Source of the DNA: Flavihumibacter profundi
Lineage (GTDB): Bacteria > Bacteroidota > Bacteroidia > Chitinophagales > Chitinophagaceae
Length of the DNA stretch: 64,000 bases
Direction of reading: 5' to 3'
NCBI RefSeq assembly: GCF_020076305.1
Contig: NZ_JAIQXE010000001.1
Span: forward strand, 434,001 to 498,000
Shown: positions 1,837 to 6,243 of the stretch, piece by piece
Layout of the letters: each line of letters starts with the position of its first letter
Numbering within the stretch: position 1 is the first letter of the stretch
The notes under the pieces: model-generated
Told to the model about the DNA's origin: nothing
The model's database searches: none
Seen by the model: only the letters and a program-made list of their open reading frames with translations
Program-made: the position numbers and the translations under genes

Positions 1837-2034
1837 TTATATAGATAATAAAAAAGTTAGTGCAGATTCAGGCGTTACCCGGACAGCCGGGTTTTCTTCA
1901 GCTGATATGACCGCTGATTTGGTCTGCAGGTATCCTGGCCCCGTTAAGGTGCAGAATTCTTTGCTTTGGCAGGAAGTTGAATATATAGCCAGCATGCAAA
2001 GCAGCATTGAAAATCTTAATAATTGTTGCTTCAT
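1837..2034 (-). CDS. Small putative lipoprotein within the ABC efflux operon
   Basis: The 65-codon ORF fills the gap between the adaptor gene (24 bp upstream) and the ATPase gene (18 bp downstream) on the same strand. That spacing is what a real operon member would show. Residues 1-21 form a basic and hydrophobic signal peptide ending in YSTSC, a plausible lipobox with Cys22 as the acylated residue. The mature part would be about 44 residues with one further cysteine (Cys28) and no fold that I recognise. It could be a small efflux accessory lipoprotein, an exported peptide, or a degenerate remnant. No function is assigned. The evidence is position and signal peptide only. Confidence 0.5.
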   Translation of the reverse strand: MKQQLLRFSMLLCMLAIYSTSCQSKEFCTLTGPGYLQTKSAVISAEENPAVRVTPESALTFLLSI

Positions 2035-2058: not shown

Positions 2059-3315
2059 CTATTGTTTTTTCAGGACCAACTCCTGCATGTTTCCATAATT
2101 TTCATAGCTGCTTGTCACAACTTTATCGCCAGGCTGCAACCCGCTTAAGACTTCATAATTATCCGGACTTTGCATTCCCAGCTGGATGTCTACTTTATAG
2201 GCCATGGTTCCTGCATCATTCAGTTTGAAGATCCAGTTACCACCGGTTTGCTGGTAAAATCCACCTTTGGCGAGCAATATTGCCTGCTTCTCATCACTTA
2301 ATGCCAGCCTGATCTGCAGGGTCTGGCCCCGTCGTATACCTTTGGGTACTTCACCGGCAAATTCCATATCTACCTGGAAACGGCCATTTGTTACCTGGGT
2401 GTACACTTTTTTAATCGTAAGCAGGTAATCTTTGCCGGCATAATTAAAAGTACCCTTCAGTCCGGTGAAAATCCTTGAAATATAATGTTCATCTACATCT
2501 ACGCGAACTTTATAACCACTTAGTACATCTATCTGCCCAAGGCGTTCCCCTTTGTTTTTTGACTGCCCGATTTCAGCATCCAATGAAGTCAGCTGGCCAT
2601 CAACAGGCGCCCGGACAACCAGGTCGCCGACTTTCTTGCGCATCAGTTGCAATGCATTTTGCATTCTTTCATAAGACTGCTGCATCTGTGACAATTGCTG
2701 GCGATTGGAAATTGAATCCTTCCTAAGGATATCAACCGTTAATTTCTTGCGGGTAGCCTGGTATTCCATCAGGTTCTGGGAAGATTTGTATTCCTGCAAG
2801 CCAATAGCTTTCTGGTCGTATAATTTCTTGTTCACTGTATACACCCGTTCAGCTTCTTTAGCAGCGTTATCAACTTCAGCCATCTGGTTTAACCGGGTGA
2901 TGGTATTCTGGTCAGCATTATTTTTGGAAATCTGCATCTGGGTTAAAACATTGAATACCTGGGTTTCCTGGTTGGAAAGGCTGAGTTCCAGGTCGGTATT
3001 GCTTAGGCGAAGGATCGGCTGGTCTTTTTTCATGATAGCACCGTCCTCCACAAATTTCTCTTCCACCCGGCCACCTTCGGTAGCATCCAGGTATATTGTC
3101 GATACAGGAAGGACAATGCCATTTACGGGGATGTTTTCCTGGAAAATGCCTTTTTTGATTTCAGTAATCGTAATCCTTTCGGTATCCACATTCAGCCGGC
3201 TGTTGCCAGAGGTGGCAAAGTAGCTCCCGCCGATCAATGCCACAAGCCCGGTAATTCCTGCAATGGTCAGAATTCTCTTGGCCGACCACTTCTTTTTTTC
3301 GATAACTCTATCCAC
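2059..3315 (-). CDS. HlyD/MacA-family periplasmic adaptor subunit
   Basis: This 418-residue membrane-fusion protein links the inner-membrane ABC permease to an outer-membrane channel. An N-terminal membrane anchor spans about residues 15-37. A lipoyl/barrel-sandwich half follows near residues 60-110 (ATEGGRVEEKFVEDG). A Gln- and Asn-rich coiled-coil hairpin covers about 110-240. The second lipoyl half contains VVRAPVDGQLTSLDAEIGQ, and beta-barrel and C-terminal domains end with GLQPGDKVVTSSYENYG. It is the first gene of the operon. Upstream of it lie a candidate -24 element and three direct repeats, which suggest sigma-54 control. No TolC-like gene is next to it, so the outer-membrane partner must be encoded beyond the left edge or elsewhere. 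Confidence 0.93.
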   Translation of the reverse strand: MDRVIEKKKWSAKRILTIAGITGLVALIGGSYFATSGNSRLNVDTERITITEIKKGIFQENIPVNGIVLPVSTIYLDATEGGRVEEKFVEDGAIMKKDQPILRLSNTDLELSLSNQETQVFNVLTQMQISKNNADQNTITRLNQMAEVDNAAKEAERVYTVNKKLYDQKAIGLQEYKSSQNLMEYQATRKKLTVDILRKDSISNRQQLSQMQQSYERMQNALQLMRKKVGDLVVRAPVDGQLTSLDAEIGQSKNKGERLGQIDVLSGYKVRVDVDEHYISRIFTGLKGTFNYAGKDYLLTIKKVYTQVTNGRFQVDMEFAGEVPKGIRRGQTLQIRLALSDEKQAILLAKGGFYQQTGGNWIFKLNDAGTMAYKVDIQLGMQSPDNYEVLSGLQPGDKVVTSSYENYGNMQELVLKKQ

Positions 3316-3373
3316 GGTAATCTAATTTTTCGTTTCCTGCTTTTTTTATTCTGATTCTATTAAGATAAACCCC

Positions 3374-3389
3374 GTGCCATATTTTAAAT
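3374..3389 (-). promoter_or_regulatory. Candidate sigma-54 promoter of the ABC efflux operon
   Basis: On the minus strand, TGGCAC occupies 3379-3374, a perfect -24 element. It is followed at the right spacing by TTAT where TTGC is expected, so the -12 element is degenerate. It lies about 60 bp upstream of the adaptor start codon. The divergent neighbour encodes a sigma-54 activator, which makes the assignment plausible but not certain. Confidence 0.5.
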
Positions 3390-3429
3390 TATTAAAAATC
3401 AATAAGTTGTAATCTTTTGAAAAAAACCA

Positions 3430-3519
3430 CTGTACGATTTTGATACAATTACTGTCCGCTTTTGGTATCCCATATTAATCTTGCTGAAATGAAATAAAAA
3501 ATGCTGTTCGGTTTTGTAA
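3430..3519. promoter_or_regulatory. Three direct repeats, probable enhancer sites for the sigma-54 activator
   Basis: Copies begin at 3430, 3452 and 3504 and share CTGTnCGnTTTTG followed by an A/T-rich end. The fixed bases agree in all three, while the n positions differ each time. The first two are 22 bp apart (two helical turns) and the third is 52 bp further. Measured from the candidate -24 element they lie about 50, 73 and 125 bp upstream, where enhancer sites for an NtrC-family regulator normally lie. The third copy ends 27 bp before the regulator's own start codon, so it may also affect autoregulation. Confidence 0.6.
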
Positions 3520-3545
3520 TAATATTATCATTGTGCTGAAATATT

Positions 3546-4904
3546 ATGACGTTAAAAAATGCCTCAATACTTGTTGTGGATGATGACACAGATGTGTTAA
3601 CAGCCGTTCGCCTTCTGTTGAAAACAGAAGTTAAAGATGTTGTGACGGAAAAGAACCCACAATTGTTACAGCAATTGCTGAGCAGCCGGAAATTTGATGT
3701 TATCCTGCTGGATATGAATTTTACCAGTTCCATTAATACAGGTAATGAAGGGTTGTTCTGGTTACGAAAAGTAAAAGAACTGAAATCTGACGCTTCCGTT
3801 ATTATGATCACTGCTTATGGGGATGTGGATCTTGCCGTAAGATCGCTTAAGGACGGAGCTTCAGACTTTGTGGTAAAACCCTGGCATAATGACCGGTTGA
3901 TTGCCACTATTAAGGAAGTACTTAAAAAGCGGGACGGTGAACATTCTGGCGAAAGGAGTTCTGCGGCAGGTACCCTGATCGGGAATGAATTGCTGGGTAA
4001 TTCAGAACAGATGCAGGCTATCTTTTATAAAATTGAAAAGATCGCCCCAACTGATGCTAATATTCTTGTCCTGGGAGAAAATGGCACAGGTAAAGACCTT
4101 ATCGCAAAAGCCATTCACCAGCATTCCCTTAGGGCCGACAAACCTTTTGTAAAAGTGGATGTGGGGGCACTGACTGATTCGCTGTTTGAATCTGAATTAT
4201 TCGGCCACCGTAAGGGTGCGTTTACGGATGCCCGTGAAGACAGGGCCGGCAGGTTTGAAGCAGCAAATGGGGGAACCGTCTTCCTGGATGAAATTGGTAA
4301 TATCAGTTTACAGCAACAAGCCAAATTACTTTCCGTTTTACAGAATCGCCAGGTGACCAGGTTGGGGACGAATACACCCATTCCTATTGACGTTCGCCTG
4401 ATATGCGCAACAAACCTTCCTATTTCTGAACTGGCCAATGAAAACCGGTTCCGGAAAGACCTTATTTACCGCATCAATACAGTGGAGATTATTATGCCGC
4501 CGCTGCGGAAAAGGGGTAAGGATATACTGTTACTGGCAAATTATTTTAATGCGATGTACAGTAAAAAGTATATGAAGCCGCAATTGAAATTCGACGAAAC
4601 TGCTAATGATAAATTATTATCCTACGCATTCCCGGGTAATGTCAGGGAACTTCAGTATACCATCGAACGGGCTGTTATCATGGCTGAAGGCGATGAGCTG
4701 AAAGCCAGTGACCTTTTATTTTCTCCCATAGAATTTGCTACTGACCAGAATGAGGAACCTTCTGAATTGAAGCTTAGTGCTATCGAGAAAAATACTATTC
4801 TTAAAGTTATAGAAAAACATAATGGAAATATTACCAAAGCTGCTAAAGAGCTTGGTTTAACGCGTACTGCCTTGTACAGAAGACTCAGTAAATATGATAT
4901 TTAA
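3546..4904 (+). CDS. Sigma-54-dependent response regulator (NtrC family)
   Basis: The 452 residues form a receiver, an AAA+ domain and a Fis-type helix-turn-helix. The receiver has acidic residues VDDD at 11-14, phospho-acceptor Asp56 in ILLDMNF and Lys111. The ATPase has Walker A GENGTGKD at 177-184, the sigma-54 contact loop GAFTDA at 224-229, Walker B FLDEIG and an R-finger region. The C-terminal HTH reads NITKAAKELGLTRTALYRRL. The usual loop is GAFTGA, and here the fifth residue is Asp. It activates sigma-54 RNA polymerase by ATP hydrolysis when phosphorylated. The histidine kinase gene overlaps it by 11 bp. The divergent ABC efflux operon is the likely target. Confidence 0.95.
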   Translation: MTLKNASILVVDDDTDVLTAVRLLLKTEVKDVVTEKNPQLLQQLLSSRKFDVILLDMNFTSSINTGNEGLFWLRKVKELKSDASVIMITAYGDVDLAVRSLKDGASDFVVKPWHNDRLIATIKEVLKKRDGEHSGERSSAAGTLIGNELLGNSEQMQAIFYKIEKIAPTDANILVLGENGTGKDLIAKAIHQHSLRADKPFVKVDVGALTDSLFESELFGHRKGAFTDAREDRAGRFEAANGGTVFLDEIGNISLQQQAKLLSVLQNRQVTRLGTNTPIPIDVRLICATNLPISELANENRFRKDLIYRINTVEIIMPPLRKRGKDILLLANYFNAMYSKKYMKPQLKFDETANDKLLSYAFPGNVRELQYTIERAVIMAEGDELKASDLLFSPIEFATDQNEEPSELKLSAIEKNTILKVIEKHNGNITKAAKELGLTRTALYRRLSKYDI

Positions 4905-6243
4905 GAAAGGTGAAAACAGGTTGTTCCTGAAAGTGATGCTGATGTTTGCAGTGCTTTGTGTAGCTGCCTGGTTACTGGTTAACCAGCAATATAAATTCCT
5001 GTTAATTGTGGTGCCGGTTTTGATTTACCAATTATCTGACCTGTACCGTTACCAGCAAAAGGCCCAGGTTGAACTTGACCAGTTTGTAGAATCGGTCCAT
5101 TACCGTGACTTCTCGCGTTATTTTGATGTAAAGCACGCCCCGGCTGAATTGCAGCCATTGCGGCATGGATTTAATGAGATCAACTCCACGTTTAAAGTAA
5201 TCAGTAAGGAAAAGGAAACCCAATACCAATACCTGCAAAAAATACTGGAGTTGGTCGATACGGGAATTCTTTCATATGAAACAGAAGATGGACAGGTCGT
5301 TTGGATGAATGAATCCTTAAAGCGGATGTTGCACTTGCCTTATTTAAAAACAGTGCATTCCCTGGAAAAGCGCGATGCCGGCTTATATAAAGTGGTTACC
5401 AGCATCAGGCCGGGTGAAGCTAAGGTTGCAGCTGCCCAGCTGGATAAGGGTAGCTTTAAAGTACTTGTTTCCTGTACTGCATTCCAGACTGACGACAAGC
5501 AATATAAGCTGATTGCATTCCAGAATGTGAATGAAGCCCTCGATGAAACTGAATCAAAAGCCTGGCAGAAACTGCTGAACGTTATGACCCACGAAATCAT
5601 GAATTCAGTAGCACCGATTTCATCCCTGGCCGACACCTTAAAGAACAGGCTGCATGCCGCTGCAAGGGAAGTTGAAGATAAGAACAGCACACTGGAAGAC
5701 CTCGAACTGGGCATTGAAACAATTAAGCGCCGCAGTGAAGGCCTTTTGAGATTTGCTGAAACATACCGGAACCTTAATAAAATAAGTGAACTGCACCTCG
5801 AAAAAATTTATGTGCTGGAATTGTTCCGTAACCTCCAGCAGCTCATGCAGCCTACGTTTGAACAGAAAAACTTTGAACTGGAGATTATCCTTAAAGAGCC
5901 TGAATTATTTCTTGAAGCTGATATTAACCTTCTTGAGCAAGTGCTTATTAATTTAATGGTGAATGCCATGGATGCTGTGAGGGAAAGTGAACATCCGAAA
6001 ATTATCCTTTCTGCTGCAACAGGACCCAACCGGAAAACCATAATTAAAGTCGCCGACAACGGGGCCGGTATGTCGCAGGAAGTGATGGAGAAAATTTTCA
6101 TTCCGTTCTTCAGTACAAAGAAAACAGGCAGCGGTATCGGGCTTAGCCTTTGCAAACAAATTATGATGCTGCATAAGGGTAATATACAGGTTCAGTCTGT
6201 AATAGGCGAGGGGACCGTTTTCTCCCTCCAATTCGGGACCTGA
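4894..6243 (+). CDS. Sensor histidine kinase paired with the sigma-54 regulator
   Basis: This 449-residue kinase has two closely spaced N-terminal membrane segments (about residues 11-29 and 33-47) with almost no periplasmic loop, so it probably senses within the membrane or cytoplasm. A PAS-like region follows (ILELVDTGILSYETEDGQVVWMNESL). The H-box is MTHEIMNSVAP with His233 as phospho-acceptor. The catalytic domain shows the N-box INLMVNAMDAV, the G1 box ADNGAGM and the G2 region KKTGSGIGLSLCKQIM. It overlaps the regulator by 11 bp, so the pair is co-expressed and presumably cognate. The signal is unknown. The coupling to envelope or antimicrobial stress is an inference from the adjacent efflux operon. 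Confidence 0.93.
   Translation: MIFKKGENRLFLKVMLMFAVLCVAAWLLVNQQYKFLLIVVPVLIYQLSDLYRYQQKAQVELDQFVESVHYRDFSRYFDVKHAPAELQPLRHGFNEINSTFKVISKEKETQYQYLQKILELVDTGILSYETEDGQVVWMNESLKRMLHLPYLKTVHSLEKRDAGLYKVVTSIRPGEAKVAAAQLDKGSFKVLVSCTAFQTDDKQYKLIAFQNVNEALDETESKAWQKLLNVMTHEIMNSVAPISSLADTLKNRLHAAAREVEDKNSTLEDLELGIETIKRRSEGLLRFAETYRNLNKISELHLEKIYVLELFRNLQQLMQPTFEQKNFELEIILKEPELFLEADINLLEQVLINLMVNAMDAVRESEHPKIILSAATGPNRKTIIKVADNGAGMSQEVMEKIFIPFFSTKKTGSGIGLSLCKQIMMLHKGNIQVQSVIGEGTVFSLQFGT

Follow-up and report, generated by a model that had tools for sequence, protein, structure and literature searches.

The window, by which we mean the whole stretch of 64,000 nucleotides of Flavihumibacter profundi DNA that was analysed, carries two divergent gene groups flanking the repeats studied here. 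The minus strand encodes an HlyD-type membrane fusion (adaptor) protein with a GTG start (2059-3315) and an ABC transporter ATPase (1141-1818), both assigned by domain matches, and the first of eight tandem FtsX/MacB_PCD permeases (3-1118), in an array that extends past the window edge. Each of the eight permeases is ~ 800 aa long and possesses MacB_PCD and FtsX domains, and the six gaps between permease genes that were readable measure 9-18 nt. Such short gaps suggest that the adaptor, the ATPase and the permease array form a single operon of ~ 21 kb. On the plus strand, domain matches revealed a response regulator (3546-4904) with REC, a sigma-54 AAA+ domain bearing a GAFTDA loop and a Fis-type HTH, as well as a histidine kinase (HATPase_c; 4894-6243). 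The nearest named orthologues of the regulator, among the best 80 of 585 relatives, come from Flavihumibacter and from a MAG labelled Flavipsychrobacter (84-85% identity). Between the adaptor and ATPase genes there is also a small ORF (1837-2034, minus strand; 65 codons) whose start resembles that of a lipoprotein. Below the permease array, another segment of the same genome (L279:1654-6616) contains a second ATPase gene with the same promoter module, together with an outer-membrane efflux gene and a gene for a radical SAM/TRAM protein; it also encodes another sigma-54 activator, with GAFTGA and no REC match.

The sequence-only reading had reported three direct repeats between the divergent genes, and all three are exact: CTGTnCGnTTTTG occurs on the plus strand at starts 3430, 3452 and 3504, where 0.04 copies would be expected in the window, and none of 100 shuffles of the window held three copies. 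Over the whole genome, CTGTnCGnTTTTG has 11 exact matches versus 1 for the reversed pattern. When the window copies were compared with unlinked matches elsewhere in this genome, CTGTnCGnTTTTG proved to be the core of a longer 17-bp unit, TGTAYCRAAAnCGnACA on the operon strand. The proximal candidate activator site, TGTATCAAAATCGTACA (3431-3447, minus strand), is an exact 17-mer with a PWM score of 27.3, and the distal candidate site, GATACCAAAAGCGGACA (3453-3469, minus strand), located 22 bp further upstream, has 2 mismatches to the 17-mer and a PWM score of 14.7. The third and weaker copy (3505-3521, minus strand), close to the regulator gene, reaches a PWM score of 9.0 with 3 mismatches to the consensus and is possibly autoregulatory. 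Shortly upstream of the regulator gene (3526-3533) lies a TATCATTG-like sequence, which recurs in several orthologous loci and may be part of the regulator's own promoter.

A full palindrome was found in part only, with TGT at one end and ACA at the other. The looser 12-mer TGTnCGnTTTTG was judged unspecific because it gave 16 matches in the genome versus 13 for the reversed pattern; several of these matches were situated inside genes (e.g. L017, L018, L022 and L024) and were rejected as chance. When two mismatches to the 17-mer were allowed, 47 matches were obtained versus 34 in controls, and such matches were therefore accepted only if supported by a -24 element or a second copy.

On the operon strand the earlier reading had also placed a -24 element, and this assignment was borne out: TGGCAC is present at 3374-3379 (minus strand), 51 nt past the end of the proximal site. 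Is this distance a general property of the site? For the 60 strict sites, with 105 nt scanned, TGGCA-type matches were found at 51-55 nt in 35 cases, at 73-77 nt in 15 and elsewhere in 8; the nearer interval corresponds to the proximal copy and the farther one to the distal copy. After removal of sites above 60% identity, 49 non-redundant sites remained, and 37 of them had TGGYAY at 51-55 or 73-77 nt, whereas 1000 shuffles averaged 0.39 such sites and never exceeded 3; in the other 12, TGGYAY was missing at both set distances. A wider alignment anchored on the -24 element was reduced from 123 to 94 promoters by a 70% identity limit. Since the -24 element was picked there within preset distance windows, the spacing in this alignment was excluded as evidence. 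In the same alignment T is found at +10 in 76 and at +11 in 89 of the 94 promoters, while the -12 GC of standard sigma-54 promoters (10 nt after GG) is unconserved across the set and missing in the window, where the -12 region reads TTTATC (3364-3369, minus strand), with the conserved TT and no GC. The -12 region had previously been described as degenerate and the promoter as possibly weak for this reason; the degeneracy is real, but its presence across the 94 promoters makes it a trait of the family rather than a peculiarity of the window promoter. The transcription start is predicted at 3353 (minus strand) from the position of the -24 element only.

These features have to be weighed against the possibility that the regulator acts, as activator or repressor, on a promoter of the housekeeping sigma factor and that TGGCAY belongs to another promoter class. 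The unconserved -12 GC speaks for such a scheme. However, TGGCAY is the -24 consensus, and a profile search of the genome found one RpoN (PF04552 match, 180 bits). The regulator itself, in which PF00072, PF00158 and PF02954 all scored above the cut-off, has the sigma-54 AAA+ domain, and the loop that touches RpoN was GAFTDA in 68 and GAYTDA in 10 of 81 compared regulators, the remaining 3 being unmatched by the pattern. Both GAFTDA and GAYTDA are among the loop variants that would keep activation, according to PMC4641369, which also argues against a housekeeping-sigma promoter. Moreover, TGCA stands at -12 in the standard register in four of 12 Hymenobacteraceae loci described below (L236, L237, L243 and L245), which supports the sigma-54 reading. 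We therefore regard control through the housekeeping sigma factor as distinctly improbable, and the promoter is treated hereafter as a sigma-54 promoter.

Another important question is whether the sites are bound by the neighbouring regulator or by some other DNA-binding protein. To follow both partners, 59 related genomes were compared; as relatives, they do not yield independent counts. Regulator matches at E 1e-100 or better were present in 24 of these genomes, of which 22 had an orthologue at 53% identity or more (one cut by a contig end) and 2 only a paralogue at 40-41%. The strict 17-mer occurred 61 times in 23 of the 59 genomes, versus 3 occurrences of a reversed control pattern, and was absent from the remaining 36. 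The 23 site-bearing genomes comprise all 22 with a regulator orthologue and G006, a genome of 55% completeness in which the site is found with no regulator match. Among family members outside the genus, the site was found in 8 of 8 genomes with the regulator and in none of 13 without it (p = 4.9e-6 if the genomes, which are related, are assumed to be independent).

The comparison of orthologous regulator-efflux loci, proposed earlier as a check, thus found the site retained and tracking the regulator across the 59 genomes. The same was seen more widely: among 80 named loci (the best 80 of 585 relatives, including Niastella, Ferruginibacter, Sediminibacterium, Mucilaginibacter, Pedobacter and Cesiribacter), the site was found at a PWM score above 15 in 60, and 57 of these 60 had TGGYA 50-56 or 72-78 nt downstream; no site was obtained when the sequences of the 80 loci were reversed. 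A second copy was less regular. It was detected 21-23 bp off in 8 of 19 orthologous loci (PWM >4) and in 32 of the 60 site-bearing named loci from the best 80 of 585 (PWM >5), and in many other loci it was reduced to a degenerate trace. As for the conservation expected of the repeats, it holds for the main site, present in 60 of the best 80 loci, but not for the third repeat, since a copy at the corresponding place (120-132 nt before TGG, PWM >4) was found in only one of the 19 orthologous loci, the window itself.

A second form of the operator was encountered in Hymenobacteraceae. In 12 loci among the best 80 of 585, from Pontibacter, Rufibacter and Sabulibacter (L217, L227, L232, L235-L237, L240, L241 and L243-L246), the geometry is kept but the site approximates the palindromic sequence TGTGCGAAATCGCACA; a second copy lies ~ 22 bp on, TGGCAY is at the usual distance, and the bend-like element is the same, with 8 or 9 of its 9 positions agreeing in 9 of the 10 loci found by pattern. 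A narrow regular expression detected 2 of the TGTGCGAAATCGCACA-form loci and a wider one 10, and L237 and L236 were added by eye. Neither operator form was found in the stretch beside the regulator in 8 of the 80 loci (L183, L184, L190, L203, L205, L208, L216 and L239), although for L184 and L239 the stretch compared extends only a short way upstream of the regulator. The two operator groups have nearly identical recognition helices in their regulators and are separated by regulator positions 286, 411 and 422, outside this helix.

That the recognition helix hardly changes between the operator forms speaks in favour of a different binding protein, and binding by the regulator is itself a prediction. 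On the other hand, site and regulator co-occur across the 59 genomes, the strongest sites adjoin the regulator gene, and the position of the site is that of an enhancer-binding protein. Taken together, these data make another binder unlikely, and the neighbouring response regulator is the candidate that we retain.

Between the candidate enhancer and the -24 element, the window contains AATCAATAAGTTG (3397-3409, plus strand), which agrees at 9 of 9 positions with WATCAANNNNTTR, the consensus of IHF and a string that turned up in 14 papers on this protein; the earlier reading had overlooked this element. The 94 aligned promoters share a conserved TAA-N4-TTGATW at -31 to -19, which is the reverse complement of WATCAANNNNTTR, followed by TCAA at -17 to -14, and the A at -29 is found in 85 of the 94. 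At a fixed offset (±1 nt), at least 7 of 9 consensus positions were present in 72 of the 94 promoters, whereas 4.4 would be expected from shuffled spacers, and a reversed control of the IHF consensus never exceeded 2 of 94. A peak was also seen for the consensus in the opposite orientation, with 13 of 94 promoters having at least 8 of 9 positions, at -18 and -19; this additional peak follows from the nearly palindromic character of the element. The genome contains two genes of the HU/IHF family (PF00216). Bending between enhancer and promoter is textbook knowledge for Proteobacteria, and among the titles returned by a literature search with Bacteroidetes none dealt with enhancer-promoter bending.

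Could the -31 to -14 element instead be the operator of another regulator, or an A+T-rich extension of the promoter, with the response regulator still binding its own sites? Such a role is conceivable, if somewhat doubtful. The conservation exceeds the 13-bp IHF consensus by the TCAA at -17 to -14, the element is nearly palindromic with its 13 promoters in the opposite orientation, and the two PF00216 genes need not encode true IHF subunits; against this, the match to the IHF consensus is in the expected place in the large majority of promoters, far above both expectation and the reversed control. We therefore continue to treat the element as a putative bend site, where an IHF-type protein would act.

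The distribution of the module extends well beyond the window locus. Among the 61 strict matches, 19 are at the regulator locus, 2 form a pair in the own genome (C3:848k) and 40 are elsewhere, one of them (L144) being the HlyD operon of G002. The first gene was scanned at 39 of these 40 sites, as L157 runs off a contig end, and proved to be a MacB_PCD/FtsX permease in 27 cases, an ABC ATPase in 5, an HlyD gene in 1 and another gene in 6. These six comprise a beta-lactamase family gene, an acyl carrier protein phosphodiesterase, a cupin, a DUF4097 gene, a weak DUF4476 match and one unmatched gene; the phosphodiesterase site (L150) has no -24 element and is probably a chance match. Two non-transporter genes, L019:3467-4507 and L131:2556-3629, were observed to carry site and -24 element, one being a DUF4097 gene and the other without a Pfam match.

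In the genome of the window, where scans of selected loci gave an incomplete list of targets, the module precedes permeases at C2:41k and C4:609k, the second ATPase followed by the outer-membrane efflux gene at C1:415.7k, and, at C1:1521.6k, a gene whose product has no Pfam match. The permease at C3:848k has two sites in front of it, and TGGCCT stands there instead of TGGCAY. A one-mismatch site lies before a permease at C1:1591k, where the module scan found none, and the composite match L263 was rejected for the score of -17 at its proximal site. The sigma-54 efflux switch proposed for the window is thus supported at this locus, but it appears to be more than a local switch, as one member of a dispersed regulon.

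Because many targets are paralogous permeases, the shared upstream sequence might be taken for a mere relic of permease gene duplication. This explanation is hardly credible, as the elements remain conserved after removal of promoters above 70% identity while the stretches between them are almost not conserved, and the module is also found before ATPase genes and a few unrelated ones.

The preferred reading, to which we assign a probability of roughly 0.85 on the evidence of sequence comparison, is that DNA bending helps the regulator, bound at one or two sites, to activate RpoN polymerase at permease operons dispersed over the genome. The repeats would act as the upstream activating sequence of the sigma-54 promoter, and the response regulator encoded divergently from the operon would occupy them, presumably in its phosphorylated form. 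One strong, imperfectly palindromic site would hold the regulator, a second, weaker site 21-22 bp away on the same helix face would often add to this hold, and the IHF-type bend site would bring RpoN polymerase at TGGCAY-N4-TT into contact with the activated AAA+ ring. The occurrence of the same module with the same spacing before unlinked FtsX/MacB permease and ABC ATPase genes suggests that a single regulator would co-induce a dispersed set of efflux or envelope permeases, in response to a cue probably sensed by the neighbouring kinase.

NtrC-type two-component activators use sigma-54 promoters with an IHF site, for example at the glnA and nif promoters of Proteobacteria. The system described here resembles them in its REC-AAA+-HTH activator, upstream sites, bend-like element and TGGCAY -24 element, and differs in the operator sequence, in a site to -24 distance that stays within ~ 5 nt across promoters, in a -12 region mostly without the conserved GC and in having efflux permeases as targets. 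A link between sigma-54 and FtsX permeases has been reported before: PMC12316311 (2025) describes predicted sigma-54 promoters upstream of genes for FtsX-like permeases (COG0577) of Bacteroidia and calls this the first such link. The permease family is the same in both studies, whereas activator, operator, spacing and bend site are unnamed in the available part of that paper. Apart from this link, openly licensed literature yielded no earlier report of the present operator or regulon. In Flavobacterium psychrophilum, also a member of Bacteroidota, the sigma-54 regulon and its -24/-12 promoters were mapped experimentally, and the targets given in the accessible text include chaperone, envelope-stress and gliding genes (PMC9723704); no permease is named there, and the terms ABC transporter and FtsX have 0 occurrences in that text. 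As in efflux of the MacAB-TolC type (described in part in PMC5985334), an HlyD-type adaptor is combined with MacB_PCD and FtsX domains, and an outer-membrane efflux gene adjoins the second ATPase of the genome; unlike in MacAB-TolC, the permeases are ~ 800 aa long, eight of them are arranged in tandem, and the ATPase is encoded separately.

More speculatively, and with considerable reserve, the data could be understood as a hard-wired sigma-54 module, common to several Bacteroidota families, that dispersed permeases have repeatedly acquired, so that one regulator and a shared ATPase and adaptor would serve interchangeable permeases, the operator being replaceable while the geometry is kept. 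The analysis supplies a sigma-54 regulon of Bacteroidota with a concrete operator, a candidate activator and a list of targets, and the defined motif and spacing allow targets to be searched for in many genomes. Dispersed FtsX-type permeases are thereby tied to one control system, which also offers a natural case of an operator that changes while the promoter geometry stays constant and points to a use of IHF-type bending at sigma-54 promoters beyond Proteobacteria.
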